Source: an archaeon
Lineage (GTDB): Archaea > Aenigmatarchaeota > Aenigmatarchaeia > GW2011-AR5
Direction: 5' to 3'
NCBI GenBank assembly: GCA_028279825.1
Contig: JANQNA010000003.1
Coordinates: 94,518-158,517 of the forward strand
Length of the DNA: 64,000 nt
Of this stretch, positions 27,407-42,123 are shown piece by piece. Numbering within the stretch: the stretch's first letter is position 1; each line of letters starts with the position of its first letter. The translations under genes were made by a program, and so were the position numbers. The notes under the pieces were generated by a model that made no database searches, was not told the DNA's origin, and saw only the letters and a program-made list of their open reading frames with translations.

Positions 27407-27997
27407 TTATTGTCTATGTGCAGCACATAATTTCTCTGTTGCCTCAGCGACATAGTGCCAGTCAACAACAACACGTCTGCCGTGTTCTTCCTTTAGAGAC
27501 CTTTCAAGTTTTATATATTTCTCAACTTCAGCTGCTGCTTCGGGCACAACCTCCAGAGATATTGGATGTTCTGCACTTTGTAGTGCCGTAAAGAATTGAT
27601 ATGCTGCGTCGGCTTCAATTTCTTTTTTTAGCTTACCCAAAAATGAAAGTCTATGAACATTAAATAATGAGACAGTAACACCTCTTTCTTGTATTCCACA
27701 AATTTCTGCATCGTAGGAATCCACCAGGCCTTCTCTACTGGAATACGTAGCCAGGCCCAGGGGACATCCAGCATCTTCCCAGCTCTCATGCCTGACAAGA
27801 CTAACCCAGTTATTGAATTGTCTCCTGACTTGATCCTCAGGGACGTCTGTGTAAGAATAAACTTTGAGATCCTGTTCATTTGGATCTGATTCAATATCCA
27901 ATTCAGCTAAATCAGGGAATCGCAAATCAGGGACTATAGCGTAATCAGGACTAAATATATTAACTTGCATCGGACGTCCATACCCAAAAATTGTCAT
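27407..27997 (-). CDS. Hypothetical protein
   Basis: The 196-residue soluble, acidic protein ends in a helical region (AAAEVEKYIKLERSLKEEHG). No signal peptide or known motif. It precedes tRNA-Gly(CCC) by 26 bp on the same strand and belongs to a run of small minus-strand genes without recognisable relatives. Confidence 0.5.
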   Translation of the reverse strand: MTIFGYGRPMQVNIFSPDYAIVPDLRFPDLAELDIESDPNEQDLKVYSYTDVPEDQVRRQFNNWVSLVRHESWEDAGCPLGLATYSSREGLVDSYDAEICGIQERGVTVSLFNVHRLSFLGKLKKEIEADAAYQFFTALQSAEHPISLEVVPEAAAEVEKYIKLERSLKEEHGRRVVVDWHYVAEATEKLCAAHRQ

Positions 27998-28053
27998 ACC
28001 TCAAGTTTCAATAAAGTCTATTAATACAAAGAATCAATTACGTATGAATTACG

Positions 28054-28263
28054 CTAGTCTCTGTAATCTTCACCAACAGAAACTATTTTCACTTCTTCAC
28101 GATCAGACCAGTAGTATATTCTTTTAGCATTTGGTCCCATAGGACCTCTTCGTCTGCGTGAAACGTATCTTCTTCCATGTTCCACTGTCCTAGAACAATC
28201 CCTGCCTAACAACAATTCCATCTGACGTACTGCTCGGCTCATTTCTGACATAACACTAATCAT
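28054..28263 (-). CDS. Small basic protein with shared N-terminal helix
   Basis: The 69-residue frame could start at 28263 or, more in line with its relatives, at ATG 28251 (MSEMSRAVRQMELLLG). The central part is strongly basic (YVSRRRRGPMG). It overlaps the stop of the upstream gene. Function unknown; nucleic-acid binding is possible from charge alone. Confidence 0.55.
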   Translation of the reverse strand: MISVMSEMSRAVRQMELLLGRDCSRTVEHGRRYVSRRRRGPMGPNAKRIYYWSDREEVKIVSVGEDYRD

Positions 28264-28528
28264 CTCCTTCTGGGTTTTCCATTTCGTAACGACAAGCCTC
28301 CATTAAAGAAAATACAGCATCTAAATCACAGCCTTTATCGTAAGGGCAAAATCCACACGGATATCTGTGCTCCCTTCCCGTTTCGAAATTCGTGACCGTA
28401 CGGGCAATTAGTCTGTCCCCTTCAGTACCTTCTGCCGCATATATACGTCTTGGTCTTCTATCACGATCAAAAATACCTAATCCAAATGTTCGCTCAAACT
28501 GTCTGTTAGCACGATAAATGTCTACCAT
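28256..28528 (-). CDS. Small protein with shared N-terminal helix and Cys cluster
   Basis: The 90-residue protein starts MVDIYRANRQFERTFG, similar to its neighbours' N-termini, and contains CGFCPYDKGC, a possible metal site. It overlaps the following gene by 8 bp, so the two are translationally coupled. Family unknown. Confidence 0.55.
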   Translation of the reverse strand: MVDIYRANRQFERTFGLGIFDRDRRPRRIYAAEGTEGDRLIARTVTNFETGREHRYPCGFCPYDKGCDLDAVFSLMEACRYEMENPEGDD

Positions 28529-28536
28529 ACCAATAC

Positions 28537-28719
28537 TTACTCCTGAAATTTCTTAAGTCTTAGACCAGGGAAATGTGCAGGTTTGTCTGTATGTGAACAT
28601 TCCATTTTACAACCCTCACATCTGTAAGTGGTTAATTCATCGCGTTTTAGTTCATAACAACCAACAAGTCCATCCATCTGTGCATAAGAACCAGTAACGG
28701 CTATTGGTTTATCTGACAT
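28537..28719 (-). CDS. Small cysteine-rich protein
   Basis: The 60-residue protein has CEGCKMECSH, suggesting a small zinc-binding motif, plus one earlier Cys. It lies 8 bp upstream of the gene at 28256-28528 and is probably in the same operon. Unknown family. Confidence 0.5.
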   Translation of the reverse strand: MSDKPIAVTGSYAQMDGLVGCYELKRDELTTYRCEGCKMECSHTDKPAHFPGLRLKKFQE

Positions 28720-28761
28720 TGACTATATTTGTCACAAAATAATAAAAAACAATAACAGGAA

Positions 28762-28977
28762 TTATTCTGGAGGTTTCCAGGGTGGTATTATCTTTAAGTT
28801 CTGGATTTTACTGCAGTCATATTGTCTTGCATGCCCACTACCGAATTCAATTGTAATAGAACCGTTTTCTGCACCCTGAACCCATCCTGTAACTTCTCCA
28901 AAAAAAGACGGATACCCAAATCTCACAGGCTGACCAACATCTACCGAATACGTCCTGTCCTTTGTCACAATATCCAT
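28762..28977 (-). CDS. Small beta-rich protein, hypothetical
   Basis: The 71-residue protein has a pattern like a small SH3-type barrel (VRFGYPSFFGEVTGWVQG, SITIEFGSG). No family assignment. Its start codon lies directly next to the 12-bp copy of the tRNA-Val end at 28979-28990, so its promoter may derive from the inserted element. Confidence 0.5.
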   Translation of the reverse strand: MDIVTKDRTYSVDVGQPVRFGYPSFFGEVTGWVQGAENGSITIEFGSGHARQYDCSKIQNLKIIPPWKPPE

Positions 28978-28978
28978 T

Positions 28979-28990
28979 ATGGGTCCAGCA
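28979..28990 (+). repeat. Putative attachment-site copy (left end)
   Basis: ATGGGTCCAGCA is identical to the last 11 bases of the tRNA-Val acceptor end plus one base (40491-40502). It lies in the 38-bp gap between two genes, as a junction would. A chance match of 12 bp to this one site in 64 kb is unlikely but not impossible. Confidence 0.6.
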
Positions 28991-29015
28991 TGTATTAAAC
29001 CGTAGGTTTGGTTCT

Positions 29016-29795
29016 CTACTCCTTTTTAGGAAATTCACCCTTCAGAGCATCCGATGCTATTTTCTTTGCATCAGGTAAAAAATCTTTACTGATCATCCAC
29101 CCAAGAAAACCCGACTCATTTTCGACCAGATAAGATAATGACTTGCCTCTATGTGGACCGAAATTTATTACAACCTCTTCACCTACCCAGACGAATTTAC
29201 CTTCTTCATCAAGCCAGTTCGGGTTTCTTCTTTCATTACAAAAGTCATGTAATTCGCGCATAGTTTTGGGTAAATCAGAGTATTGTTTTAATTGAGATTC
29301 CAGAATTTCAAATGTTGCTCTAACATCAGATTCAGAAGCGTGATGATTCTCCATTTCTTTTCCACAATATTTTTTATATGCTGCAGACAGATCTCGGGGA
29401 TCATATTTATGATAAATTGTCTGAACATCCAAGATGTGACGTCCTTGCCTCGAGAATTCAACACCTGCTCTTCTAAACTCAGACTCAAGGATAGGAATGT
29501 CAAATCTTTTTACATTAAATCCACCAAGATCACACCCTTCTAAAAATTCTATGAGTTTTGGTGCGTATTGTTTAAAAGTTGGCTTATCTTGTATATCCGC
29601 ATCAGTTATTCCATGAATAGCAGTTGCCTCTGGTGGAATAGGAACTCCTGGATTGATTCTTGTACTCAATATCTCCTCACTTTTATCGGGAAAGATTTTC
29701 AGAGCTGTTAGCTCTACAATTTTATCAGAAGGAGGACTAACTCCAGTACTCTCCACATCGATAAAGACAACAGGTCTATTCAATTGAATATCCAT
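29016..29795 (-). CDS. DnaQ-like 3'-5' exonuclease with ExoX-type C-terminus
   Basis: The 259-residue protein starts at ATG 29795; the longer frame adds a non-homologous hydrophobic leader. It is a DEDD exonuclease: FIDVESTG (Asp13, Glu15), AIHGIT, GGFNVKRFDIPIL and HHASESDVRAT carry the metal and general-base residues. The C-terminal 60 residues (FGPHRGKSLSYL...GWMISKDF) resemble the small domain found after ExoX-type exonucleases. On a mobile element it may process element or host DNA ends. Confidence 0.88.
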   Translation of the reverse strand: MDIQLNRPVVFIDVESTGVSPPSDKIVELTALKIFPDKSEEILSTRINPGVPIPPEATAIHGITDADIQDKPTFKQYAPKLIEFLEGCDLGGFNVKRFDIPILESEFRRAGVEFSRQGRHILDVQTIYHKYDPRDLSAAYKKYCGKEMENHHASESDVRATFEILESQLKQYSDLPKTMRELHDFCNERRNPNWLDEEGKFVWVGEEVVINFGPHRGKSLSYLVENESGFLGWMISKDFLPDAKKIASDALKGEFPKKE

Positions 29796-29891
29796 ATCAA
29801 CACCCACTATTAGTAAGGTAGTAAAATACAAAAGGCTAAAGAAATAATCCCAAACAACATATTTTAAATTCAAAGGTATCTATGAAAATTC

Positions 29892-30200
29892 ATGGACGTA
29901 CTATTGGTTATGATTCCAATATTGTCATTTGTATTGGGTTATTTTTTACCACAATCAGAAATCAGAGAATTTGAAAAACAAATTGCTCTCATTGTTGGCG
30001 TTTCTAGTGCCCTTAGTCTCTTGAATTTAATGCCTAGTAGCTTAATAATAGACTCAGAGACAATGTCAACTTTTCTAAAAAATTCTGTAGGGATCATAAT
30101 TGATACAACTTTAGAGACAGTCATGATTGCAATTATAAGCTCTGTTCTTGGTATAGTGGGCGTCGTGATCGGAAAAAACACTGAAATCGGTTGTGTATAA
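29892..30200 (+). CDS. Small membrane protein
   Basis: The 102-residue protein has three hydrophobic stretches (residues 3-19, 31-52, 72-94) separated by short polar loops. It is divergent from the exonuclease gene. Function unknown. Confidence 0.55.
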   Translation: MDVLLVMIPILSFVLGYFLPQSEIREFEKQIALIVGVSSALSLLNLMPSSLIIDSETMSTFLKNSVGIIIDTTLETVMIAIISSVLGIVGVVIGKNTEIGCV

Positions 30201-30315
30201 ACATCATAGCTTATAGTTCTTTACATTCTGTGATAATAGTCACAAGTAATATATGACAAAATCTTTATTAATGAACGGTTTATTATAAGTACAGAATATA
30301 TGGACAGTGTTAGTA

Positions 30316-30744
30316 ATGATTAAGACTTTTGAAGCGGGATTCACTTTACACCCTGCGGTTAATAACGGCAAAAGAAGTCAAAGATTAAGACCAGTTATAG
30401 AATTACCATTTAGATATGCTAGTGGCGAATCCTTGGATATATCATCTCTAATAGACTCTGGGGCAGATAGAAGTGTGTCATTTAAAGAGGTCGGGGAGGG
30501 TCTTGGAATAAAATTTGTCGGAAAACCGTCAGAGCCTGTTACAGGAATAACTGGAGAGGAAAGTGCGTGGCAAAAACCAGTTTATGTTACGATAGGAAAT
30601 GAAACTATCCATATTGATGTACTATGGATGGACAGAAAATTTGATCCTGATTCTGATTTTATGATGTCTCTTGGGCGAGAAAAAATATTCGACGTGTTCG
30701 ATGTTTCCTTCACAAGAGATAAAAAAATAATATTTTCAAAATAA
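30316..30744 (+). CDS. Retropepsin-like aspartic protease family protein
   Basis: The protein has the single-domain aspartyl protease pattern: SLIDSGADRS (catalytic DSG), a flap-like PVTGITGEES, and the later SLGREKIFDVFDVSF in place of the ILG-D element. The start is taken at ATG 30316 rather than the upstream GTG. Retropepsins work as dimers; the substrate here is unknown. It converges with a DUF5678-like gene 2 bp away. Confidence 0.78.
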   Translation: MIKTFEAGFTLHPAVNNGKRSQRLRPVIELPFRYASGESLDISSLIDSGADRSVSFKEVGEGLGIKFVGKPSEPVTGITGEESAWQKPVYVTIGNETIHIDVLWMDRKFDPDSDFMMSLGREKIFDVFDVSFTRDKKIIFSK

Positions 30745-30746
30745 AA

Positions 30747-30962
30747 TTACCAGGCCATTATCTTTTCTTTCTTTGGGTAACTTGTTATACCTATTTTTCT
30801 ATTGGCGTAATTTTTTCGCAAAGCTGTAAGAACTTCTTTTATAGAATCACCAAATAAAACAGCTCTATTATCGACCAGACCAACTATCCGACCCTCATAT
30901 TTTGTGGAGTTCAAATCTCTAACATTTTTCGAATCAGAAGTCCTTAGCATCGTGATAGCCAT
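30747..30962 (-). CDS. DUF5678-like small protein
   Basis: The 71-residue protein (start chosen at 30962) has KYEGRIVGLVDNRAVLFG followed by a helix and KIGITSYPKKE. This matches the short DUF5678 pattern. Such proteins are often found beside retropepsin-like genes in archaea, as here; what the pair does is not known. Confidence 0.65.
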   Translation of the reverse strand: MAITMLRTSDSKNVRDLNSTKYEGRIVGLVDNRAVLFGDSIKEVLTALRKNYANRKIGITSYPKKEKIMAW

Positions 30963-31184
30963 AAATACCGCCTTTATAGGAACCTTTATAAGTAAATAAC
31001 GCACCTAAGTCGTATTTAAACGTTTTTCACACTTTTGGTCATTTCAACGGGTTTTGGTGTTTTTAAGTTTTGGAGCACAAAGGTCAATCATTTTACTATG
31101 ATATATATGTGTGCAAAAAAATTTAACTTATTATGAATCCTTGATATCTCTTGTCAAAAACACAAATAACTTATTTGTAAACTT

Positions 31185-31868
31185 CTAATCATCTTCAGCA
31201 TATTCTTCATCTGATTCTAAACCCTTTTTAGATCTGGTTATTTTTTCGTCAATATGCTCGTATACAACATTTGGTTTAATAGTCTCATCTTCTCCACCCG
31301 TTTCTTCGTGGTCCTTAGTTGTTTGTTCAGGTTTGCTTGTATTGAATAATTCCCATTTGATTTTTTTCGCCTCAATGACCTTTTTTAGTTGACGTTCTTG
31401 TGAATTTAGAGTACTCTTTCCGCTTTTGACCTCTAGGAATATGACTTTTTTGATATCTTTTTTGCCCATGCCATCAAAAATAACAAAATCAATAGGAGCA
31501 CCCATAAATTTCATATCAGAGGGGTTGTATGGAAATTTCGGCAGATACGGGGATACTTGTTCCCACATTTTTCCAATTATCGTTCTACGTGATCTCTTGA
31601 CAGCATCTTCACGTAGATACTTTTCAGATCCTTTTATCATATCTTTTATCTCAGCAAGATCAGAAGCATATTTCATCTTCCAATCTTTGTCGAGTCCTTC
31701 GAATTTCAATTTCCACTCATTATTCTGTTCATTGAGTTCATTCTTCCACTTTTCATCCAATAGTTTCTTTTTGTCTCCCCATTTACCTTTTTCACCCGCA
31801 CGCTTCCCTAAAATGACACCAACTAGTAATGTGAGAGAAACTATGAGGATCAATAATAAATCCATCAT
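31185..31868 (-). CDS. Membrane-tethered nuclease-like protein related to Holliday junction resolvase (COG4741-like)
   Basis: An N-terminal hydrophobic helix (DLLLILIVSLTLLVGVILG) is followed by a charged coiled coil and a nuclease-like core: GAPIDFVIFDG, then KVIFLEVKSGK, giving the D...ExK pattern of PD-(D/E)xK enzymes. The acidic C-terminal tail is unusual. I start at 31868, before the hydrophobic helix. The gap 31005-31184 upstream of its stop holds no gene or clear structure. Confidence 0.75.
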   Translation of the reverse strand: MMDLLLILIVSLTLLVGVILGKRAGEKGKWGDKKKLLDEKWKNELNEQNNEWKLKFEGLDKDWKMKYASDLAEIKDMIKGSEKYLREDAVKRSRRTIIGKMWEQVSPYLPKFPYNPSDMKFMGAPIDFVIFDGMGKKDIKKVIFLEVKSGKSTLNSQERQLKKVIEAKKIKWELFNTSKPEQTTKDHEETGGEDETIKPNVVYEHIDEKITRSKKGLESDEEYAEDD

Positions 31869-31924
31869 CACACCTAATTTTAATAAATTGCCAAAATACA
31901 TAAAGACTAGGGGTGGCAAGTGGT

Positions 31925-32995
31925 ATGAAATATAGTATAAGAGCTGTGGGTATTACAGTTTTGTGTATCTGTATTTTGTCCGCCAGTGCCTACGCCATTC
32001 CAGTTGGATTTATTGATATGAAATTGGACGAAAATCTAGATAAATTACATGTTAAAACAATGATAATGAATCCTGAACCCGTTACAAAGGGATGTCATGA
32101 CGATTTAGGTAATTGTACAAAAGAATTTATGTTTACAACATGGTCTTGGCTTGCTACAGATACACCAGAAGAGGCGGAATTAAGAACACAGAGAATGTAT
32201 ATATTTTCTCATCCAGAAACAAAAGCTTACAAAATCGATAACTGTTCAGATTTAGCTATCGGATATATATTAGAGCCAAATATTTTATTGAGACTTAATC
32301 GAAGTAAGGATCCACCATTTGATATTGATATTCTTCCATCCGAAAACACAACCATTTCACTTGCAATCTTAAATGATTCACACTCTTCCTGTACTTATTT
32401 TGATTTTTTTTATCTGAATCCAAACCTAGTGGATAAAAGAAATCAGTTTTTTTACCCCTTTGATACGTACACTGCCGTAATAGGAATATACATACCAGGC
32501 AAACCTTATGCAAATGTAGAAATGGAAGTTCCAGATGATTTTAAAATTAACAATATAATGAGTTCACCTACCACCAACAAAAAATTCAATACCGAAAATA
32601 TAGCATTTGTTGCATATAACTTATACGAAAACAAAACAACAGTAACAATAACTTTCGCAAGATATAAAGACTTATCAGATTTCATATACCCATTATTTTC
32701 ACTATTAACACTGCCTATTATAATCATGTTTTATGTTTTTTACTTATACAAATCAAAAGATGAAACAACCAATAAAAATATAAAATATTTAGGCTTTGTT
32801 TTTATTACCCTGCCGTTATTTTTTAATTTTGCATCATTTTATACTGATAAACCTAGTGTTTTTACCGTACTCGATATTAGCTTTATTTTAAGCGTCTTAT
32901 TTATGATATTTGGTTTGTATATAATCCAAAAAACAAAAAAAGTAAAGGGTAAGAATAAGCATATAAAACAAGTCATTTGTAATACACAAGGTTAA
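31925..32995 (+). CDS. Exported protein with C-terminal membrane domain
   Basis: The 356-residue protein has a signal peptide ending near SAYA, an exterior beta-rich half with N-glycosylation sequons, and three or four transmembrane helices in the last 130 residues. The exterior segment NQFFYPFDTYTAVIGIYIPG before the membrane part recalls DUF4436-type proteins, a tentative match. It is a possible surface component of the element. Confidence 0.6.
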   Translation: MKYSIRAVGITVLCICILSASAYAIPVGFIDMKLDENLDKLHVKTMIMNPEPVTKGCHDDLGNCTKEFMFTTWSWLATDTPEEAELRTQRMYIFSHPETKAYKIDNCSDLAIGYILEPNILLRLNRSKDPPFDIDILPSENTTISLAILNDSHSSCTYFDFFYLNPNLVDKRNQFFYPFDTYTAVIGIYIPGKPYANVEMEVPDDFKINNIMSSPTTNKKFNTENIAFVAYNLYENKTTVTITFARYKDLSDFIYPLFSLLTLPIIIMFYVFYLYKSKDETTNKNIKYLGFVFITLPLFFNFASFYTDKPSVFTVLDISFILSVLFMIFGLYIIQKTKKVKGKNKHIKQVICNTQG

Positions 32996-33011
32996 GGAGA
33001 TGACCATCAAT

Positions 33012-33152
33012 ATGAAATGCTCAAGATGCAGTAAGAAAGCCGAATTTCTTATTCCCAGTATAAAAAAAGGTCTTTGTGAGGATCATGCAGTTGAACACTT
33101 ATCGGATACAAAAAATCAAGGATTTTTACTAAAGATTGAAAAGAAGACATGA
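33012..33152 (+). CDS. 46-residue zinc-binding-like protein
   Basis: The frame MKCSRCSKKAEFL... has CSRC and, 15 residues later, GLCEDH, giving a CxxC...CxxH set that could hold zinc. It lies 16 bp after the exported-protein gene and ends directly before the next frame. Short but well framed, so probably real. Confidence 0.6.
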   Translation: MKCSRCSKKAEFLIPSIKKGLCEDHAVEHLSDTKNQGFLLKIEKKT

Positions 33153-33167
33153 TTGACGTTTATAATC

Positions 33168-33476
33168 ATGGAATCCAAGAACCTATATCAGTTGATACAT
33201 GAAGGTCTGGAGGGATGGCGTAAAACAGGAGTTCTTCCAAATGGAGAAAAATGGTTCCCATATGACCAAGTACAAACATCGCCACACGTGAGAAGATTCC
33301 AAGTAAGTTCATTTACATCGTTGTTTTGCTCAAAGTTCAACATGAATAGACAAATAGCCATATCAGTTCTTAGATATCTTGAGGATTCTGATATTATCAA
33401 GATTGTCTGGCAAAGTCCAAGAGGTTCTTATTTTAATTTGTTAAAATGCGACCAATTCAAAAAAAAGAAATCATAA
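33168..33476 (+). CDS. Winged-helix-like DNA-binding protein
   Basis: The 102-residue protein (ATG 33168) has a helix-turn-helix pattern in FTSLFCSKFNMNRQIAISVLRYLEDSDII followed by a wing-like strand, as in replication or regulatory winged helices. It overlaps the convergent regulator gene by 20 bp. It is a possible element regulator or replication accessory. Confidence 0.6.
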   Translation: MESKNLYQLIHEGLEGWRKTGVLPNGEKWFPYDQVQTSPHVRRFQVSSFTSLFCSKFNMNRQIAISVLRYLEDSDIIKIVWQSPRGSYFNLLKCDQFKKKKS

Positions 33477-34089
33477 AGAATTGTAAATATAGATCAAAAA
33501 TATCTTTTTCTTTTTTGTTTAATTTGTTATTATTTATGTAAATATGTGGAACAAAACTCATTGCTAAATCCATAAAAGTATATTTTCTCTTTTGCTTTTG
33601 ATAAAAAACTAGTTTATTCGTACCGATGATAATATGTTTTTTACCTGATAACATACACGAACTTACCATATCATCTTTTATTTTTGAAACATATTTTTTA
33701 TTGAAGTAATCATTTCTCCATGTGGGGGAAACGGAGATTTCTTTAATGACGTCTTTAAAGTGTTTTCTTAGGGTTTCAATTATTTCTTCGATCACACCTT
33801 CTTTTATAAACCCTATTTGAGTGTTTGCAGTGATGCCAAGTTTAACAATTGGATCCAGATTATAATCATAAATAACTGTATATCTTTTTCCAGTTTTTGG
33901 TATTTTATATCGCTTAATAAGTTTTGCAGAGGACATCTGTTTAAGGTATTGATTAACTACAGGTTGTTTGAATCCCGTGTCTTCAGAAATGTCATGCTCC
34001 GTTTTCTTTCCACTAGCTACAGACAAAAATACTTGCAACATACTGTTACTTTTCCATATATCCTTGATTTTTTCCATTACAGACACCAT
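33457..34089 (-). CDS. Winged-helix transcriptional regulator, probably autoregulated
   Basis: The N-terminal domain has an ArsR/MarR-like winged helix (KKTEHDISEDTGFKQPVVNQYLKQMSSAKLIKRYKI). The C-terminal 120 residues contain no known motif. ATG 34089 is chosen because the longer frame would run through a palindrome and promoter. That palindrome (34093-34114) lies 3 bp before the start codon, suggesting autorepression. Confidence 0.75.
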   Translation of the reverse strand: MVSVMEKIKDIWKSNSMLQVFLSVASGKKTEHDISEDTGFKQPVVNQYLKQMSSAKLIKRYKIPKTGKRYTVIYDYNLDPIVKLGITANTQIGFIKEGVIEEIIETLRKHFKDVIKEISVSPTWRNDYFNKKYVSKIKDDMVSSCMLSGKKHIIIGTNKLVFYQKQKRKYTFMDLAMSFVPHIYINNNKLNKKEKDIFDLYLQFFMISFF

Positions 34090-34092
34090 TAT

Positions 34093-34114
34093 AGGTAATA
34101 ACCTATTATTACCT
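34093..34114. promoter_or_regulatory. Operator-like palindrome before the winged-helix regulator
   Basis: AGGTAATA-ACCTAT-TATTACCT has perfect 8-bp arms and sits between a TATA-like TATATAGATATATA (34114-34129) and the regulator start. Its position at the transcription start suits repression of the regulator gene and perhaps of the divergent operon starting at 34152. Confidence 0.65.
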
Positions 34115-34151
34115 ATATAGATATATAAGATTATCATTCATATGTTTCATT

Positions 34152-34280
34152 ATGTCAGTAAAAAGAATTTGTTTGTCAGTAGAAAAGGATTTATTAGAAA
34201 AAATAGATTTGACACGTGAAGATGTTTCAAGAAGTAAATTCATTGCACGAATTCTTCGAAATAAAATTGATGCTCTATGA
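34152..34280 (+). CDS. 42-residue ribbon-helix-helix-like protein
   Basis: MSVKRICLSVEKDLLEKID... has the strand-helix-helix pattern of small CopG/Arc-type DNA-binding proteins (basic-strand start, LTREDVSRSKFIARILRNKI). It is first in a chain of five short plus-strand genes, coupled to the next by ATGA. It probably regulates the element. Confidence 0.68.
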   Translation: MSVKRICLSVEKDLLEKIDLTREDVSRSKFIARILRNKIDAL

Positions 34281-34435
34281 AAAATAATTTAACACTTTAT
34301 CAAATTTTGACGTCTCCCCTTGATAATGAAATTGAGAGATATATGAGACGACAAGGCCTAGGCTGGTATATTTCTCGTCGCAAGAAATTTCAGAGGTATT
34401 TGATTAAGCAGCATGAGGGTGATTCTGGTGTATAA
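34277..34435 (+). CDS. 52-residue basic protein
   Basis: The frame is strongly basic in the middle (RYMRRQGLGWYISRRKKF). The ATG overlaps the previous stop (ATGA), and its own end overlaps the next frame by 8 bp. Function unknown; the tight coupling is the best evidence that it is a gene. Confidence 0.55.
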   Translation: MKNNLTLYQILTSPLDNEIERYMRRQGLGWYISRRKKFQRYLIKQHEGDSGV

Positions 34436-34556
34436 GTATGTGTATTTACCATCGACATATCACATTGAATATGGATATACATATAATGTGTACGAAGTTC
34501 CTGTTAAGGGTTCCCATTGTCAATACACATACACAATAGGAGACGCATTGTCATGA
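34428..34556 (+). CDS. 42-residue tyrosine-rich protein
   Basis: The frame starts at GTG 34428, inside the previous gene's end, and ends at TGA 34554-34556, overlapping the next ATG by 4 bp. It is rich in Tyr (YHIEYGYTYNVYEV). Its exact fit between neighbours with overlaps on both sides supports it. No family known. Confidence 0.5.
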   Translation: MYKYVYLPSTYHIEYGYTYNVYEVPVKGSHCQYTYTIGDALS

Positions 34557-34810
34557 AGCATCGAATAAATATATTGGTCGATTATCAAAATTGGAGAGAT
34601 TTTGTAAAACTCAATGGAAAGGGTGGGCTAAGTAGATTCGTTGATGAGAAAATATCTGAATATCTAGAAAAAATGCGTTTGCGATGGTGGATTGTATGTC
34701 CCGAATGTAAGCAAAAGGTCCACATACGAATAGTTCTTAATAATGGTGGTCATTGTGATAAAAACAATTGCAAAGGCGTTATAGCAGAAAAAATCAACGG
34801 GGTGAGTTGA
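34553..34810 (+). CDS. Ribbon-helix-helix-like N-terminus plus zinc ribbon
   Basis: The N-terminal half resembles a CopG-type DNA-binding fold (RINILVDYQNWRDFVKL...SRFVDEKISEYLEKM). The C-terminal half has CPECKQKVHI...CDKNNCKG, a zinc-ribbon-like Cys set. Start at 34553 by ATGA coupling. It is a likely DNA-binding element protein. Confidence 0.65.
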   Translation: MKHRINILVDYQNWRDFVKLNGKGGLSRFVDEKISEYLEKMRLRWWIVCPECKQKVHIRIVLNNGGHCDKNNCKGVIAEKINGVS

Positions 34811-34811
34811 A

Positions 34812-35078
34812 ATGGAAGTATTTGAGGAGAGAACATCATTGCTAAAACTGGATGGTCTTACACCAGCAGAATTAGGCTTTATTTGCTACGCTATTCAAAA
34901 GGCCATGATAGATGCCAAAAAGGAAGATATTCTATACATAGATGCGGATATCAATTGTCCTTTTTATCTATCGTTTGAGGAAGCTAAGGCACTTCTTGAG
35001 AAAATAAAAAAGGTGTGTATACGGGATGAAATGCGTTTTGCTATGGGTGTGGACCCAGAAATAGCAAAGATAGCTTAG
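34812..35078 (+). CDS. Hypothetical element protein
   Basis: The 88-residue, mostly helical, acidic protein begins 1 bp after the previous stop. LTPAELGFICYAIQKAMIDA and LSFEEAKALLEKIKKV suggest two helical hairpins. No family recognised. Confidence 0.5.
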   Translation: MEVFEERTSLLKLDGLTPAELGFICYAIQKAMIDAKKEDILYIDADINCPFYLSFEEAKALLEKIKKVCIRDEMRFAMGVDPEIAKIA

Positions 35079-35145
35079 CTTTGTTCTGGAAAAACCATCG
35101 AAAACATAACAATTCTCCATATTTTTTCGGTAATTTATGATATTC

Positions 35146-35766
35146 ATGGGAAAGTTGACTGTAGAGGACTGTAAAATATTATCAGTCAGGGAAGTTTTGA
35201 AGGGGGTAACAAATCCAGAGACCATTAGAGATAGAGATCTAGTGGAATATGTCACTATCGTGGTGGGAATAAACGGATGGGATGGCAAATTCGACCAGAG
35301 AATAGGATTTGTACAAACACCAACTCAATTTAATGGATTCAGAGTCTGGTTTAAATGTCCGCATTGCACTACAAAGGTAAATAAAATTTATTCGCCTCAG
35401 GGAAGATATCCATTCGCATGCCGTAAATGTTATAGATTAGACTATGAACTGCATCTTAAGGGCAAAACTAAGAGATATTCAGCCATAAAATGTCGGAAAG
35501 CAGAAGAAAAATATTTCAAAACACATGGTAATTCAAAGAAATATGAAAAAAGACGTAATGAATGGCTTTTTTGGCGGAAAAAGAGGGATATTTATCTTAT
35601 AGAAATGTGTATGAAAACAAGTCGGGAATTTGAAAAAATTACCTCACGCCACAATATTGGAGATATAAAAGATGATTGCTATCAGAACTTTAATCCCAAA
35701 AGAAGAGAAAGAAGGCACCATCCAGCTAAGCTAATTGGTATGTGCTCAAAGCTTGGGTGGTGGTGA
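35146..35766 (+). CDS. Zinc-ribbon protein of mobile-element type
   Basis: The 206-residue protein (MGKL start) has a central zinc ribbon (FKCPHC...FACRKCYRLDY) followed by a long basic helical region. Proteins with this ribbon recur in integrated elements, but their function is not known to me. A nucleic-acid-binding role fits the charge. Confidence 0.6.
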   Translation: MGKLTVEDCKILSVREVLKGVTNPETIRDRDLVEYVTIVVGINGWDGKFDQRIGFVQTPTQFNGFRVWFKCPHCTTKVNKIYSPQGRYPFACRKCYRLDYELHLKGKTKRYSAIKCRKAEEKYFKTHGNSKKYEKRRNEWLFWRKKRDIYLIEMCMKTSREFEKITSRHNIGDIKDDCYQNFNPKRRERRHHPAKLIGMCSKLGWW

Positions 35767-35793
35767 GTGCATCCATTTTTGTCATAAAGAGAA

Positions 35794-36117
35794 TTAATTG
35801 TTATCTTTGGGCGATATTTTTTCAAGACTTATTTTCAGTTCTTTTGCCTTGTCAAGAATTTGTTCACGTTTTGTAGCATCGGTCAACCTATAACGTTTCT
35901 CTTTGAAACCACTACCTTTTCCAGATAGACCTTCCTCTACCAATCCCATAACTATCATTTCGCGCAACACTTTCTGTAGACCGCCGTCCGTGAGTCCAGC
36001 AGCCTCTTTAAGATCAGTCCACCTCTTTGGTCCAGACTCAAGTGCCTCTAATACAGAGTAAGTGCTATCGCGCATAAGTATCGCCACAGATTTCCATTCC
36101 TTAGGAGCATAACGCAT
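35794..36117 (-). CDS. Winged-helix regulator, HxlR/ArsR-like
   Basis: The 107-residue protein has a clear winged-helix pattern: LEALESGPKRWTDLKEAAGLTDGGLQKVLREM, then a beta wing around KRYRLTDATKREQ. It faces the divergent lipoprotein gene across a 102-bp spacer with two inverted repeats, so it may control both genes. Confidence 0.75.
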   Translation of the reverse strand: MRYAPKEWKSVAILMRDSTYSVLEALESGPKRWTDLKEAAGLTDGGLQKVLREMIVMGLVEEGLSGKGSGFKEKRYRLTDATKREQILDKAKELKISLEKISPKDNN

Positions 36118-36219
36118 TATAGGTTATTGCAATATCTAACTTATAAGATATATACACTCTATTAGAATATAAAATATCTAATAGATAGTTATATAAAGGT
36201 ACGAGTTAATAAACTATTT
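36118..36219. promoter_or_regulatory. Divergent promoter region with two inverted repeats
   Basis: Between the HxlR-like regulator and the lipoprotein gene lie ATATCT-N8-AGATAT and TCTATTAG-N12-CTAATAGA, both containing the ATCTAA-type sequence in repeated form. TATATAAAGG just before 36200 is a good TATA box for the lipoprotein gene, about 25 bp before its ATG, implying a nearly leaderless mRNA. Confidence 0.55.
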
Positions 36220-36771
36220 ATGAAAAATAGATGGACAGCAACTATCATAGTTGCTATAATCTTAATTGTTGGATGTACTTCAAACGATACAACCTCAGGT
36301 AGTACAGAAATAAATAAAATAGTAGCACAGTCCCAGGCTGAAATAAATTGTCCTTTCTTGAACAAAAACATTGTATTACAAAGCACGCGCATACCCGAAA
36401 AAGATACACTTTGGACATGGCACGATTACGGTAACTATAAGCCTGAGTTTAGTAAATATAGATTTGGCATATCATGTTCAATGGGAAATGAGGCAGGCGA
36501 AAACAAGAATTATTTTTACTGCAAATTTGACACAGGATGTGTAGAAGTTACTGAGAAAGATGTAATAAAAGGCTACCTGAGAACTTACGCTAAAGCTGGT
36601 TATAAAGTCACCGATTCTATGATTGATCACGTGAATGAATACGGATCTGATTCAACTGGTCGAGTGAATTTAACATCGTACAACATAAGTGCTGAAATGA
36701 TGGAATGTGTTTCAAATCAAAAAGAAAATAATGACATTGTAGACTGTCATAAATATGAGCCTCCATTTTAG
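36220..36771 (+). CDS. Lipoprotein, element-encoded
   Basis: Signal peptide with lipobox LIVGC. The mature 165 residues contain six cysteines and glycosylation sequons, typical of an exported disulfide-bonded protein. Unknown family. It may be a surface-exclusion or host-interaction protein of the element. Confidence 0.65.
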   Translation: MKNRWTATIIVAIILIVGCTSNDTTSGSTEINKIVAQSQAEINCPFLNKNIVLQSTRIPEKDTLWTWHDYGNYKPEFSKYRFGISCSMGNEAGENKNYFYCKFDTGCVEVTEKDVIKGYLRTYAKAGYKVTDSMIDHVNEYGSDSTGRVNLTSYNISAEMMECVSNQKENNDIVDCHKYEPPF

Positions 36772-36881
36772 ATATATCACCTTCTGAAAAACTAAGAAAT
36801 TTTATTGACGGAAGAAGCAATGAAAATACTCCCAAAAGATAATAGAATTAATTTAAAAAAATTTGTTATATAAATCTTATA

Positions 36882-37601
36882 ATGTCAAATACATTTTTTA
36901 AAAATATTGTATTAGTTTTATTAATTTTATCTGTTTTTTTTGTTGCTGGGTGTACAAATCCTAAAAATTTGAATACGGATACAGTTAACGAAAACATAAA
37001 GAAAATTAATGACTCTGTGGTTGAAATATGGGGTTGCCAAGTTCCAATAGAGAGAAATCCCATCTGTGAATTAAGTCCAGGATTTTCTTTTAATGATAGA
37101 GGCAATATAATGACCACATATCATACAATAAAAAACAATCCTTATAGGTATATAGTTTTTTCTAATGGCACAAGACAAGCAGTACCTGAAACAAGTTCAT
37201 TGTATGCTTTTAGTGAATACCAAGATTTAGCTTTTTTAATTATTGATACAGATGTTCCAAAGGTGATTTTTGAAAATTTTACAATAAGTGAAAGTGATAT
37301 GCGTAATAATTCAGTAGGCTTCATAGGGTTCCCTAATGGCGTTAAAATAAAGACTTTAGCTGTAGGAAAAATTAGTGACATAGTTAGGGATTCTGAATAT
37401 TTGTTTACTGTTTTTAAGATAGAGGGATCAGTTTATTCGGGTAACAGTGGAAGTCCCGTGTTTTTAATGGATACAGGTAAAGTGATAGGTGTTTTGGTTA
37501 AAGGTGATCATAAAACAAATCTTACAGGTTTTGCTATACCTCTTGACAGAACATACTTGGATGAATTTGATAAATCCTTGAACAGTGTAGATTCCAGGTA
37601 A
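36882..37601 (+). CDS. Trypsin-like serine protease lipoprotein
   Basis: Lipobox VAGC places Cys24 as the lipidated residue. The chymotrypsin-fold triad is visible: His81 (TTYHT), Asp115 (YQDLAFL), and Ser189 in GNSGSP. There is no PDZ domain, and the length (239) suits a single protease domain. TTATATAAA lies about 15 bp before the ATG. It would act outside the cell at the membrane. Confidence 0.85.
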   Translation: MSNTFFKNIVLVLLILSVFFVAGCTNPKNLNTDTVNENIKKINDSVVEIWGCQVPIERNPICELSPGFSFNDRGNIMTTYHTIKNNPYRYIVFSNGTRQAVPETSSLYAFSEYQDLAFLIIDTDVPKVIFENFTISESDMRNNSVGFIGFPNGVKIKTLAVGKISDIVRDSEYLFTVFKIEGSVYSGNSGSPVFLMDTGKVIGVLVKGDHKTNLTGFAIPLDRTYLDEFDKSLNSVDSR

Positions 37602-37656
37602 GCATACAAAAACTAATTATTGAACAAATTTATAAACTTCAAGTCTAATAATCTTT

Positions 37657-37745
37657 AGGGCACATGGTGCCGAGTCGGAGTCTAAGGCCCCGAAAGGGTT
37701 CGGTCGTTTGGCCGCCGAAGGCAAAGAACACTTGGGACGTGCCCT
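37657..37745 (+). ncRNA. Structured RNA directly before the RNase HIII-PIN gene
   Basis: A 7-bp closing helix AGGGCAC/GTGCCCT (37657-37663 with 37739-37745) encloses hairpin CCGAA-AGGG-TTCGG (37690-37703) and hairpin TTTGGCC-GCCGAA-GGCAAA (about 37707-37724). A TTTATAAA box lies about 25 bp upstream, matching an RNA starting at the helix. It resembles a tRNA in having a 7-bp end helix but lacks a T loop. It ends 9 bp before the next ATG, so it could be a separate RNA, a leader element, or both. Confidence 0.6.
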
Positions 37746-37754
37746 ATCTTAATT

Positions 37755-39236
37755 ATGAGTTCAAATATAGTATTCCGCTGTAAAACTTCTGATGATTTCA
37801 AAATATTTAAAAAAGAAGTGTCAGATGAGTTTGATATAGAAGACAAGGAAACCAAGGAAAGTTTTGTTTCTAACAGATTTATTCTTACAGGTTTGAAGAT
37901 AACGATTACATACTATATGAGCGGTAAGGTAATGATACAGGGTAGTCCAGATATTGCTGAAATTGAAAAACTTGTTAATATCGCGAAAAGACGTTTTAAG
38001 TTTGATACACCCAGATTGTTCAAGAAGTCAATAAAAGATATATCAGAAATCAACAAGAAATATTTTATTGGACTTGATGAGTCAGGTGTTGGAGAAACTT
38101 TTGGTTGTATGTACCTTGGTATTGCTATAATAAAAAAAGAAGATCTTCTCGAAGCCCATAAAATATTTCGGCCACAGGATGTAAAACAATTCGATGTAAA
38201 AACTGTAATAGACCTTAATATAAAATCGAATAAATTCTTTGAGAAAAATCTTAAGAGATACAATGCAAGAGATATTGACACTTCGAACAAAATATTACTT
38301 CTTGACAGGGGGTATGAAGAGCTTCTGTTGAAATATAAAAACTTGATACCCGATTCTTGTATTATTCTTGATGACTACGGAATTGGAACAGTTTTTAAAA
38401 ACTTTATAAAGAAATGGGAAAAGGCAGGAGCGATATTCATATTACGTCATAAGGCCGATAGTATTTATTTACCACCGATGGCAGCCTCTATTATTGCCAG
38501 GAAATCAAGAAATACAGAAATTAAGACGCTTACATCAAAATATTCAATTATAGATCCAAAAACAGGGGAAAAGATAGAACTCACAACAGGTAGTCCGTCA
38601 AACCCATTAACAGAAAAATGGCTTATAGCATATCGTAGAGCCAATCCATACTCAGATTTCCCATTTTTCGTAAGAAATAAATGGAAAAATGTACAGGAAA
38701 TAGAAAAAAGGTTTCCGAAAAAAAGCATATCCCATGTCTTTAGCTGTCAAAAATGTGGAAATGGTCTTGGTAAAGTATACATAAGATATGACAAAATTAA
38801 GGACAGCACCGAGATTCAATGTCCGACTTGTGGTGAACAAGTTAATCCAATTTTCTTCAAAAAGAATTTCTCGTACGGAACAATAGTTATGGATACAAGT
38901 TCTCTAATAACAAGGATAGTATCAAAAGACTTACGAACAACAAAAATATTTGAAAACATGAAATTTATTATACCTTCTTGTGTATATGAAGAGATTGACA
39001 CAAAACAACCTGATAAAAAGAAAGGCGCTGAAAATGAAATAAGTTTTCTCAAAGAGTGTCAAACAAAAGGTATTATAGAGTTAGAGGATGTTGATGTAGA
39101 TATATTATCTGGTTTATCAAAAGACAAGAAAATTATAGAAGTTGCGAGACAACATAAAGCATCACTGATAACGTATGATAGAACTCAAAATTTATGGTCA
39201 TCAATAAGATCTTTTGTATTTTATATAGTCAACTAA
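37755..39236 (+). CDS. RNase HIII - zinc ribbon - PIN nuclease fusion
   Basis: Residues 1-85 form a TBP-like substrate domain as in RNase HIII (YYMSGKVMIQG). Residues 100-310 are the RNase H catalytic domain: Asp108-Glu109 (GLDESGVGE), Asp206/207 (ILDDYG) and Asp235 (HKADSIYLPPMAASIIAR) fill the four acidic positions. Next is a zinc ribbon (C331, C334, C356, C359), then a PIN domain (Asp380 in VMDTSS, the YEEID acid, Asp457, Asp475 in TYDRTQ). Both nucleases look intact. I know no described protein with this order. It overlaps the integrase gene end by 4 bp. Confidence 0.8.
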   Translation: MSSNIVFRCKTSDDFKIFKKEVSDEFDIEDKETKESFVSNRFILTGLKITITYYMSGKVMIQGSPDIAEIEKLVNIAKRRFKFDTPRLFKKSIKDISEINKKYFIGLDESGVGETFGCMYLGIAIIKKEDLLEAHKIFRPQDVKQFDVKTVIDLNIKSNKFFEKNLKRYNARDIDTSNKILLLDRGYEELLLKYKNLIPDSCIILDDYGIGTVFKNFIKKWEKAGAIFILRHKADSIYLPPMAASIIARKSRNTEIKTLTSKYSIIDPKTGEKIELTTGSPSNPLTEKWLIAYRRANPYSDFPFFVRNKWKNVQEIEKRFPKKSISHVFSCQKCGNGLGKVYIRYDKIKDSTEIQCPTCGEQVNPIFFKKNFSYGTIVMDTSSLITRIVSKDLRTTKIFENMKFIIPSCVYEEIDTKQPDKKKGAENEISFLKECQTKGIIELEDVDVDILSGLSKDKKIIEVARQHKASLITYDRTQNLWSSIRSFVFYIVN

Positions 39237-40444
39237 TTAGAATCAGTTTTAATATTCTTCTTATACTCCCTTAATATTTCTTTATCGGTCTTTGTAAGTA
39301 ACTCTGGGGCTTTTGCCAAAATGTTCTGAAGGAGAGTGTTGACATTTATTGCAGTTTCCAATGAAAGTATTGAACCACACGAGTTGCAGAACTTGGATCC
39401 AGGACTATTTCTCTGTTTACATGTTCTGCATACTTGTATTGTTGTTTTCACTTGATACTTATTTTCAATATCAATACCGTTCATGCGTTTTATTGCGTCT
39501 TCTGTATCGCGCGCAGACATATGAACATATACACTTGGCATGTCTGATCCACCTGACCATCCATAATAGGTCTTCATCTGCGCCTCTGTTAGGAATTTAG
39601 CAGCTCTTGTGGCGGAGCTGTGCCTGAATAGGTGTGGATGAATACGTTTCTTGATACCAGCTCTCGTGGCAAGTAATTTTAACACCTTATTCGCACCAGC
39701 ATATGTAAGCTGGTCATATCCTCTGTTACCTTCTATCCTGTTGTGTTTTGTAAGGAAAAGGAAACTATCGGGATTGCTCTTTTTAGGATGAATATCCAAA
39801 TACGTTGCCAATATTGGAACACTTGCTATAATCGTAACACGTCTCATGCCTGTTTTACCATTCAGCATAACAAATCCAATGTTATCTTGGAATACTATGT
39901 GCTTTATTTTGGTGTTTAGAATTTCTCCTATACGCGCACCTGATTCGTATAACAATAAGGTAAATGCCTTGTCCCTTGGGTTATCCGCAGCCTCTAACAT
40001 CTTTTCAAGTTCTTCTTCTGTTATTAGATCATCAGGGAGTTTGTTATTAGATTTCTTTTCTGTTGTTTCAATCCAGGAGACAACACCTGGGTAGTGACCC
40101 TTTTCTTCTATATTAAAGAGCCACTTATAGAATTTCTTCAATGCAATGTTGTGATTATTCTTTGTTTTACTTGTCCATTTTTGTGATTCAATCAGACTCT
40201 TTAACTTGACTATATCACTTTTCTGTGCTGCAGTAAATTTCTTCTTTAGATGAGATGCAATAAACCATATAGAATAAAGATCTTTTGTTATTGTAGCTGG
40301 TTTCAACCCACGCGCCTTGCACAATTCAGTAAATTCTGCTATTTTCTTTCTGTTGAATGAAGATATAGTTTTGTCAGTTTGGATTTTCTTTTCTATGTGT
40401 TTCAATCGTTCGTCAAACTTGTGTATATCTCTGGTCTCGTCCAT
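39233..40444 (-). CDS. Tyrosine recombinase / integrase with C-terminal zinc ribbon
   Basis: All catalytic residues are present: Arg171 (ESGARIGEI), Lys197 (NGKTGMRR), His271-x-x-Arg274 (HPHLFRH), and nucleophile Tyr306 (MPSVYVHMS). An N-terminal SAM-like core-binding domain precedes them. A C-terminal zinc ribbon (CRTC...CNSC, residues 339-356) is common in archaeal integrases of this type. It ends the element 48 bp from tRNA-Val, its likely target. Confidence 0.93.
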   Translation of the reverse strand: MDETRDIHKFDERLKHIEKKIQTDKTISSFNRKKIAEFTELCKARGLKPATITKDLYSIWFIASHLKKKFTAAQKSDIVKLKSLIESQKWTSKTKNNHNIALKKFYKWLFNIEEKGHYPGVVSWIETTEKKSNNKLPDDLITEEELEKMLEAADNPRDKAFTLLLYESGARIGEILNTKIKHIVFQDNIGFVMLNGKTGMRRVTIIASVPILATYLDIHPKKSNPDSFLFLTKHNRIEGNRGYDQLTYAGANKVLKLLATRAGIKKRIHPHLFRHSSATRAAKFLTEAQMKTYYGWSGGSDMPSVYVHMSARDTEDAIKRMNGIDIENKYQVKTTIQVCRTCKQRNSPGSKFCNSCGSILSLETAINVNTLLQNILAKAPELLTKTDKEILREYKKNIKTDSN

Positions 40445-40490
40445 ATTTCATATTTATGGGGCGTTATATATAAACTTCACCTGAGGTTAA

Positions 40491-40502
40491 ATGGGTCCAG
40501 CA
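40491..40502 (+). repeat. Putative attachment-site copy (right end, tRNA-Val 3' end)
   Basis: ATGGGTCCAGCA covers the tRNA-Val discriminator, the 3' acceptor strand and adjoining bases (written on the plus strand), and equals 28979-28990. It lies between the integrase and the body of the tRNA. Confidence 0.6.
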
Positions 40503-40603
40503 GGAATCGAACCTGCAGTCTCATCCACGTCAAGGACACGTCATACCATTTTCCCAACCTTCCGCTTTTAAAGTCATGGAAAGGTTGTCTAGACCATGGA
40601 CCC
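40492..40603 (-). tRNA. tRNA-Val(GAC) with D-loop intron; integration target
   Basis: On the minus strand the acceptor GGGTCCA pairs with TGGACCC, and anticodon loop TTGACGT gives GAC. The T-arm is GCAGG-TTCGATT-CCTGC and the discriminator is A. The D loop, which should run AG-GG-TAT, is interrupted by about 41 nt (40548-40588) whose ends pair (CAACCTTTCC with GGAAGGTTG, one bulge). No intron is needed at 37/38. Its 3' end is the proposed attachment site of the neighbouring element. Confidence 0.88.
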
Positions 40604-40613
40604 ACTGGTGTAT

Positions 40614-40632
40614 GAAGTACCGGAGATACTTC
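40614..40632. promoter_or_regulatory. Inverted repeat 10 nt before tRNA-Val(GAC)
   Basis: GAAGTA-N7-TACTTC forms a 6-bp-arm inverted repeat ending 10 nt upstream of the tRNA-Val 5' end (minus strand). This is the same distance as the repeats before both tRNA-Ser genes, though the arms differ in sequence. Confidence 0.45.
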
Positions 40633-40664
40633 TGTCTTATCTTCTGTTTTCTAGAAAAGCTTTT

Positions 40665-40886
40665 TTAAAGCAAACTGTCGAAATAGTCTTCTCCGTCGTC
40701 CGTTATTTTATATAAAACTTTTCCGTCACCGCTGTAGTTCCTGCACCTTCTCACCATATCTTCACGTAATAAAGAATTAAAGGCTCTTCGATAATCACGT
40801 AACAAGCTAAAATCATCCTGACAGATTGCACGCCTAAATCTTAAATTCCCTAATATAACAAACTTGGTCCCTGACAATGCACTCAT
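40665..40886 (-). CDS. Winged-helix-like small protein
   Basis: The 73-residue protein has a helix-turn-wing pattern (YRRAFNSLLREDMVRRC... VLYKITDDGEDYFDSLL) as in small archaeal winged-helix proteins. It ends about 60 bp before tRNA-Val. Function unknown. Confidence 0.6.
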   Translation of the reverse strand: MSALSGTKFVILGNLRFRRAICQDDFSLLRDYRRAFNSLLREDMVRRCRNYSGDGKVLYKITDDGEDYFDSLL

Positions 40887-40906
40887 AGAATGGAAGTATG
40901 AGAAAT

Positions 40907-41227
40907 CTATTTAATTGATATTTTCTCGCCTTTTTTGAAGTCAGCCAGACCTTTTTTTACTTCCAGAGTATACTTTGCCTCTTTGTTTCTGTAGCCTTTC
41001 CAGCTTCTTGGGTGGAGAAAATGTCTGGCCGTCTGTTTCTCGAGAACAACGAAGTTATTATCCAGAAAGTACAGATCAAGCGTTCTGCATAGAAACGTGC
41101 CTATATTGTTCGTATAGACCAATGCGCCGTCCAAAGTTATCAATGGATGTAGAGTCAGGCCAAATATAGACTTAACTCCTTTACAGTCCCTGACGCGAAG
41201 CGTCTTACCCCTGTGCTTCAGTATCAT
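40907..41227 (-). CDS. DUF192 family protein
   Basis: The roughly 106-residue beta-rich protein matches the DUF192 pattern around LDLYFLDNNFVVLEKQTA and AKYTLEVKKGLADF. Members elsewhere are often exported; this one lacks a signal peptide. The start may be 41227 or 41233, overlapping the dUTPase-family gene by about 23 bp, so the two are coupled. Confidence 0.78.
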   Translation of the reverse strand: MILKHRGKTLRVRDCKGVKSIFGLTLHPLITLDGALVYTNNIGTFLCRTLDLYFLDNNFVVLEKQTARHFLHPRSWKGYRNKEAKYTLEVKKGLADFKKGEKISIK

Positions 41228-41738
41228 TTCCACGCCTCGCGAACTTCAAAAGATCTTCCCCTTTATACTGTCCAGCATAGCCGGATGTTTCGTTATCCAG
41301 CCTGAAGAAAACCATCTGACCAAGTTTGGCGTTCCTGTATATCCTGACAGGCCTTGATACTTCAGCATGGAAAAACGATCTTCCTTCGTAGCCAGGATCC
41401 CAGACCGCTGTATGTTCAACAATTCCGCATACCAGCGCAGAAGATCTTGGAAGAATCAAAGCAGCTATGTTTTTTGGAAGGATTATGGTCTCGTTCATAG
41501 AAATATGATACACGCCTGGTTTCAGATTCCAGTGGTCACCCTGAATAGGAATTTCCACATACTTAGGAAGTTTACGTTTTTCGTTAGAAAAATCAAGTAC
41601 TCCTTCCCCTTCCATTGTGAAAACTTTCGCGGCTGTCAGATCTATTCCACATTGTTGTATCTGTTTTTCAGGGTCAATCATGTCTTTTACAAGCAGCCCC
41701 TTTGATACGTAACTTCGTATATCTTTGTCAGTTAACAT
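41205..41738 (-). CDS. dUTP diphosphatase / dCTP deaminase family protein
   Basis: The 177-residue protein has family motifs: QCGIDLTA, LPRSSALVCGI, and the substrate site HTAVWDPGYEGRSFFHAEV. These lower dUTP or deaminate dCTP in nucleotide metabolism. The AVWDPGYEG form is closer to archaeal dUTPase-like members than to bacterial Dcd, but deaminase activity cannot be excluded. Confidence 0.82.
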   Translation of the reverse strand: MLTDKDIRSYVSKGLLVKDMIDPEKQIQQCGIDLTAAKVFTMEGEGVLDFSNEKRKLPKYVEIPIQGDHWNLKPGVYHISMNETIILPKNIAALILPRSSALVCGIVEHTAVWDPGYEGRSFFHAEVSRPVRIYRNAKLGQMVFFRLDNETSGYAGQYKGEDLLKFARRGNDTEAQG

Positions 41739-41754
41739 AGCTAGAGTTGTTATC

Positions 41755-42123
41755 TTATTTTTTAAAAAGCTTCTTTATCCTCTGTTTAAAGAGCTCTTTT
41801 CTGTGAGAAAGAATCTGCCCTGTTGTAATCCTGCCCGTCTTGTAAGAATGCAGATATTTTGATCCGCATCTTATACAAAATTCCGCCTTTTCAGTTATGA
41901 AGTTTTTATGGCAGGAAGAGCACACGTAGGTGTAAAGCACATTTGGTGTTGCTTTGTCACCCCTTTCCACTTCCTTTACAGGGCCTTTACAGAAGATACA
42001 TTCTTCTACAGGCGTGAACGTATCAAACCCGTGTGCACATTTCTGGCATATGTACATATGCTTCAGTCTTTTACGATAGTTATGATAGTCTAAAAGCTCA
42101 CTTGGGGGAAGTCTGTCCAACAT
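41755..42123 (-). CDS. Double zinc-ribbon protein
   Basis: The 122-residue protein carries two zinc ribbons: CQKC...CIFC (residues 26-46) and CSSC...CIRC (68-87), then a basic C-terminal helix. It is probably a nucleic-acid-binding or adaptor protein. It lies 16 bp upstream of the dUTPase-family gene in the same direction. Confidence 0.68.
   Translation of the reverse strand: MLDRLPPSELLDYHNYRKRLKHMYICQKCAHGFDTFTPVEECIFCKGPVKEVERGDKATPNVLYTYVCSSCHKNFITEKAEFCIRCGSKYLHSYKTGRITTGQILSHRKELFKQRIKKLFKK

Follow-up and report, generated by a model that had tools for sequence, protein, structure and literature searches.

Within the window, a stretch of 64,000 nucleotides from an archaeon of the Aenigmatarchaeota, a gene was identified whose protein joins an RNase HIII-like part, a zinc ribbon and a PIN domain. 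It is preceded by a probably structured RNA and converges with an integrase gene next to a tRNA gene. The features of the locus are given below with their positions in the window, strand and basis.

27381-40490, no strand: segment of about 13 kb, to which the syntenic stretches of three congeners have no counterpart
28979-28990, plus strand: tentative far end of the element, a 12-bp copy (ATGGGTCCAGCA) of the tRNA 3' end at 40491-40502
37629-37636, plus strand: TATA box TTTATAAA, from the sequence; its first base lies 27 nt ahead of the RNA block
37656-37746, plus strand: structured RNA block, probable 5' leader, from the extremes of GC content and minimum free energy (MFE), a z-score of -2.43 and a unique closing helix
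37689-37698, plus strand: hairpin of the RNA block with a GAAA loop, from the predicted fold
37702-37713, plus strand: second hairpin of the RNA block, from the predicted fold
37755-39236, plus strand: fusion of RNase HIII-like part, zinc ribbon and PIN domain, 493 amino acids
37755-38000, plus strand: TBP-like N-domain, residues 1-82, from the RNase HIII alignment, the DUF3378 and rnhC profiles and the model
38052-38735, plus strand: type-2 RNase H core, residues 100-327, with the acids D108, E109, D206 and D235
38745-38831, plus strand: CxxC/CxxC zinc ribbon with C331, C334, C356 and C359, from Pfam and the sequence
38883-39233, plus strand: PIN domain, residues 377-493, with the acids D380, E413, D457 and D475, from alignment, model and Foldseek
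39233-40444, minus strand: tyrosine integrase with a C-terminal zinc ribbon, convergent with the fusion gene and overlapping it by 4 nt
40492-40612, minus strand: tRNA-Val(GAC) with an intron in the D-loop, presumed integration site, from the sequence and a partial Rfam tRNA match

For the genes scanned from 27.4 to 40.9 kb, the syntenic regions of the three congeners contain no counterpart. The integrase adjoins the 3' end of the tRNA-Val gene, and the tRNA is kept in the congeners. Thus, the location of the fusion gene in an integrated element, as put forward in a preliminary description of this DNA, was confirmed. The far end of the element is tentatively marked by ATGGGTCCAGCA at 28979, a 12-mer match that alone is near chance. 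Relatives of the integrase are widespread in the phylum, being present in 43 of 156 genomes (E<=1e-25). The relative in genome G055 shows 70% identity; its contig ends 110 bp past the integrase, and the PIN sequence was not found there. Anticodon and intron of the tRNA-Val were assigned by eye. The intron comprises about 44 nt inside the D-loop; the gene was missed by ARAGORN and matched in part by Rfam. Unusual length also marks several further tRNAs of the window, e.g. at 769-912 and 11337-11473. In the congener G058 another tRNA lies within about 10 bp after tRNA-Val. The tRNA introns, together with the small genome and the gene content, are suggestive of a DPANN lineage.

The fusion gene is flanked by the integrase and by the gene of a trypsin-like lipoprotein. 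Pfam and PADLOC revealed neither an antitoxin-like gene nor any convincing defence gene next to it. At 31185-31919 (minus strand) a Holliday-junction-resolvase-like endonuclease with a hydrophobic N-terminus is encoded (PF10107, 5.6e-39), for which a 73% DNA match was detected in genome G063. The inserted segment also encodes a DEDDh exonuclease. An aspartyl-protease-like gene at 30307-31004 is convergent with a DUF5678-like small gene.

For the fusion protein, the ATG at 37755 is backed as start by alignment with relatives. The N-terminus could be aligned with the RNases HIII of Bst and Aquifex (2d0a, 3vn5). The match to the TBP-like DUF3378 (1.5e-4, 22.3 bits) lies under the cut-off of 27, and the modelled N-domain has the topology b-a-b-b-b-b-a with a pLDDT of 76 to 93 per ten-residue block. 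The following part matches the RNase HII/HIII family of Pfam with 9.2e-12 (PF01351, 45.7 bits vs. a cut-off of 25.8). Its AlphaFold model is confident, and the top PDB structures found with Foldseek were RNases H2/H3 (5.9e-15). Judged by the catalytic acids and the predicted fold, this core belongs to the type-2 RNase H superfamily.

The PIN domain was aligned alone, apart from the full-length rows, and its four acids line up with those of eight PIN-ATPase relatives. The match to PIN_4 of Pfam (2.6e-4, 21.7 bits) is 0.2 under the cut-off of 21.9; the region also matches phrog_2765 with 2.7e-7. In the model of this region a PIN fold is predicted with a mean pLDDT of 80, and the top structural matches were small PIN domains. 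In the full-length AlphaFold model the ribbon, the PIN domain and the arrangement of the domains are poorly modelled. Four acidic residues and the predicted fold assign the C-terminal domain to the PIN domains, and both nuclease domains look intact from their residues. The CxxC/CxxC ribbon and the intact-looking PIN domain had been named in the preliminary description and were found again. Of the RNase HIII with four acids that it proposed, the acids hold; the assignment to canonical RNase HIII had to be given up in favour of a separate archaeal branch.

Relatives of the RNase HIII-like part are rare. The first one was found in a Nitrosopumilus by a scan of named genomes for the HIII motif and shows, among the matches listed, 33% identity over residues 49-330 (E 6e-39). 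Profile searches added genes in the genomes G434, G439, G526 (truncated) and G717, giving at least five genomes, all of them Nitrososphaerota. The complete relatives comprise 325-329 amino acids and end at their C-terminus where the ribbon of the fusion starts; ribbon and PIN domain are missing in every relative found. Searches of the phylum of the host yielded, beyond the protein of the window, ordinary RNase HII only, and the host genome has an RNase HII of its own elsewhere. In a tree of 44 cores, the fusion and four relatives form one branch (support 100/99), within which the fusion pairs with the gene of G439 (98/86). The branch stands nearest to the bacterial RNases HIII (n=19) and apart from RNase HII (92/87, unrooted tree), and no grouping inside the bacterial RNases HIII was observed.

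With the curated rnhC model TIGR00716 (cut-off 161.2 bits) the fusion reached 61.8 bits, the relatives 58.6, 78.4 and 68.5 bits and a Bacillus control 346 bits. The curated RNase HII model TIGR00729 gave 64 bits for the fusion at a cut-off of 123.3 bits. The branch resembles RNase HIII in its N-domain and RNase HII in its C-terminal half (HKAD, FPxFVRxxW). The tyrosine of the GYPSD motif, by which RNase HII recognises single ribonucleotides and which is lacking in RNase HIII (PMC9719913), is not present; S280 stands in its place in the fusion, while three relatives have N or A there. By sequence comparison, residues 1-327 are assigned to a rare archaeal RNase HIII-like clade separate from canonical RNase HIII. 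Kochiwa et al. (2007) reported RNase HIII for one of 27 archaea, Methanosphaera (PMC1950709), and no description of such a clade was found in the literature searched.

The distribution of the relatives is patchy. One Nitrosopumilus genome carries an intact and a broken copy of the gene; the second, decayed one is located at 9981-11070 of its contig (G156:C61, locus L186). In G526 the gene (8365-8949, locus L185) is cut at about 195 amino acids and lies in a nuclease/helicase/transposase-like island. A 329-amino-acid protein without Pfam match, which by eye may be a nuclease, is encoded divergently beside the Nitrosopumilus gene (locus L069, 462-1451, minus strand). A Bacillus-like RNase HIII was matched in a record titled Chryseobacterium sp. 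ISL-80 (L114), which is possibly mislabelled.

The same domain order, for which the preliminary description had advised a search among homologs, was not found in any collection searched. No such fusion was detected in phages, plasmids, viral contigs and 156 genomes of the phylum, nor in two overlapping samples of about 400 genomes drawn around that Nitrosopumilus. Hence, the fusion is a singleton among all collections searched. No PIN gene was seen beside the RNase HIII-like relatives, and the best matches to ribbon and PIN domain in their genomes are frames of about 600 amino acids elsewhere. The nearest PIN relatives found in the phylum are likewise archaeal PIN-ATPase frames of about 600 amino acids with 29-38% identity, and not known toxins. 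The RNA is missing from the RNase HIII-like relatives as well, and many of them show no obvious mobile context, features which the preliminary description had named as speaking against its reading. Since the relatives lack the PIN domain too, this says nothing decisive about the fusion.

The region ahead of the gene is conspicuous in composition and predicted folding. With 61.8% GC (mean 33.6%), positions 37657-37745 are the richest 89 nt of 28979-40490, and no other 95-nt segment of the plus strand in the 16 kb scanned (26000-42000) reaches as low an MFE as the one at 37651. For the block an MFE of -38.7 kcal/mol was calculated; three of 200 dinucleotide shuffles were equally stable, and the z-score of -2.43 is moderate. 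The block is closed by a perfect helix of 8 bp (37656-37663/37739-37746), which is the sole GC-rich one with that span in 13.1 kb (0.13 in composition shuffles). Inside this helix an inner stem is predicted, followed by a three-way junction bearing two hairpins. The RNA had been described with two hairpins and a 7-bp closing helix; the hairpins recur in the predicted fold, and the helix is one base pair longer. The promoter-like TATA box noted before is TTTATAAA, separated from the block by a gap of about 20 nt and one of 3 copies in the 13.1 kb. The distance of nine bases from the end of the closing helix to the ATG likewise proved correct.

An out-of-frame ORF of 39 codons starting at 37664 overlaps the block. 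Its GC3 of 68% over the 28 codons of the block is unlike the 21-35% of five measured genes of the element, and the block was thus treated as RNA. A tRNA or tRNA-like gene was also considered; a D-arm-like GCC..GGC is suggestive, but a T-arm is missing and no tRNA was matched up to E 10. The covariance models of Rfam 15 gave zero matches up to E 10. There is no second copy in the host genome, and no relatives were detected by pattern scans of viral contigs or by blastn of plasmids and phages. In the phylum eight non-self DNA matches were obtained, six of which fall on one 30-nt stretch. The four inspected look like chance matches and are apparently coding; none corresponds to an Rfam RNA. No such block was seen ahead of four related RNase HIII-like genes either, and it contains no tandem repeats.

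Between the block and the ATG neither a consensus promoter nor a terminator was found, and there is no room for a promoter. As the TATA box lies before the RNA, a 5' leader is the simplest reading, and the block is most likely the structured 5' leader of the fusion gene mRNA. Leader control, antitoxin-like partner and guide had all been suggested for this RNA. The first agrees with the anatomy of the locus; for a guide or antitoxin role, tandem repeats, an Rfam match and conserved copies are missing, and these roles are unsupported.

Taken together, we tentatively favour the reading, drawn from the encoded domains, that the fusion is cargo of the element and a two-headed ribonuclease aimed at RNA-DNA hybrids, with control by the leader. 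The TBP-like domain and the RNase H core would bind hybrids and cleave the RNA strand in them; these hybrids would be longer than single ribonucleotides, given that the single-ribonucleotide tyrosine is lost. The tethered PIN domain could then cut the freed or flanking single-stranded RNA. In this way the RNA at R-loops of foreign or rival replicons, be it a nascent transcript or a primer, would be destroyed and not merely nicked. The leader might hold expression low or autoregulated, perhaps with the protein binding or cutting it. The gene is cargo of an element and the host already has its own RNase HII, which would fit defence or exclusion between elements better than housekeeping. Sparse and patchy relatives, one decayed and one truncated, are as expected of conflict or mobile genes. 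A more specific version, which would be unlike the defence systems described so far, is doubtful; in it the TBP-like or the PIN domain would bind the structured RNA of the element, and this RNA would control whether R-loops or nascent transcripts of rival replicons are destroyed. The interpretation given in the preliminary description is partly supported, namely in the intact look of both nuclease domains, the structured RNA and the setting in an integrated element.

A serious rival, though on balance unlikely, is a replication enzyme of the element whose two parts remove RNA primers or process replication R-loops upon excision. RNase HIII is important for Okazaki maturation in B. subtilis, where a discrete FEN cuts RNA-DNA hybrids (PMC9719913, PMC10191290), and the Holliday-junction-resolvase-like gene and the DEDDh exonuclease of the segment would fit such a role. 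The PIN domain, however, has small PIN domains as its best structural matches and does not fall into the FEN/T4 RNase H type. Furthermore, no replication initiator or polymerase was recognised among the element genes scanned, and no replication genes were seen near those relatives whose surroundings were listed.

Two further explanations give the RNA a role of its own. A structured RNA with sharp boundaries immediately 5' of a nuclease gene could be processed separately and act as antitoxin or inhibitor that binds the PIN or TBP-like domain. The RNA has no relatives, a terminator and a second promoter are absent, and neither type III-like tandem repeats nor a ToxN domain (Pfam, PADLOC) were detected; such an RNA-gated toxin is improbable. 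Similarly improbable is an undescribed riboswitch-like leader which senses a metabolite or an ion before a repair nuclease and is unrelated to the action of the protein. It would agree with the compact junctional fold predicted, the GNRA-type tetraloop and the position at the mRNA 5' end, but not with the missing Rfam match up to E 10, the single copy in the genome and its absence before four related genes. Finally, the fusion may be a recent chance event. Since it is a singleton, selection for it is not demonstrable, and related genes are decaying in other genomes. Nevertheless, 493 codons are open, the start is kept, and the catalytic and zinc residues are retained in both enzymes, which makes idle cargo with an open frame and no selected function the least probable of these explanations.

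The observation is well supported and reveals a new archaeal branch of RNase H, one member of which is fused to a PIN domain; the mechanism is unproven. The branch carries a TBP-like domain and is missed by the curated models for both HII and HIII, so that its members are easily annotated as plain RNase HII. The existence of fused and free-standing forms makes the contribution of the PIN domain to a hybrid nuclease directly testable. It has been proposed that RNase toxins are coupled to RNase H modules in order to attack RNA in hybrids; to this idea the fusion would add a version with PIN.

With type III toxin-antitoxin systems (ToxIN) the locus shares a structured RNA ahead of an RNase gene; in contrast to them, tandem repeats of the RNA, a ToxN domain and a terminator separating RNA and gene are missing. 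The PIN fold and the four acids are common to the PIN-KH ATPase (PRK13764) and to VapC-type PIN proteins. Unlike the former, the fusion has no ATPase or KH domain and a ribbon precedes its PIN domain; a small VapB-like antitoxin gene adjoining it, as in VapBC, was not found. Among solved structures, the RNase HII of P. horikoshii was the top-scoring relative and has identical catalytic acids. Compared with archaeal RNase HII, the fusion adds the TBP-like domain and a longer insert before GSPSN and lacks the GYPSD tyrosine. The TBP-like N-domain with a type-2 RNase H core, the start motif DExGxG and the loss of the single-ribonucleotide tyrosine are shared with RNase HIII of Bacillus, Aquifex and Thermovibrio. 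In contrast, the C-terminal half is HII-like, with HKAD instead of the KAE of bacterial HIII, the ribbon and the PIN domain are added, and the archaeal clade stands apart from the 19 bacterial sequences.

The absence of a described system of this layout, as stated in the preliminary description, holds for the exact layout, yet a close functional precedent exists. HEPN RNases of the RnlA type occur in fusion with RNase H or with the TBP-like domain known from RNase HIII; DNA-RNA duplexes were proposed as their targets, and other 'two-headed RNases' are described in the same work (PMC3710099). RnlA is stimulated by RNase HI (PMC5308261). As in RNase LS (RnlA), a ribonuclease toxin domain is linked with a module that is either RNase H or TBP-like. 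The fusion differs by a PIN domain in place of HEPN and by an RNase H of type 2, and no matches to HEPN, RnlA or RnlB were obtained for it and the scanned neighbours (Pfam, PADLOC). By this comparison the fusion is not a member of RNase LS; it would act along similar lines, and RNase LS is its nearest functional precedent.
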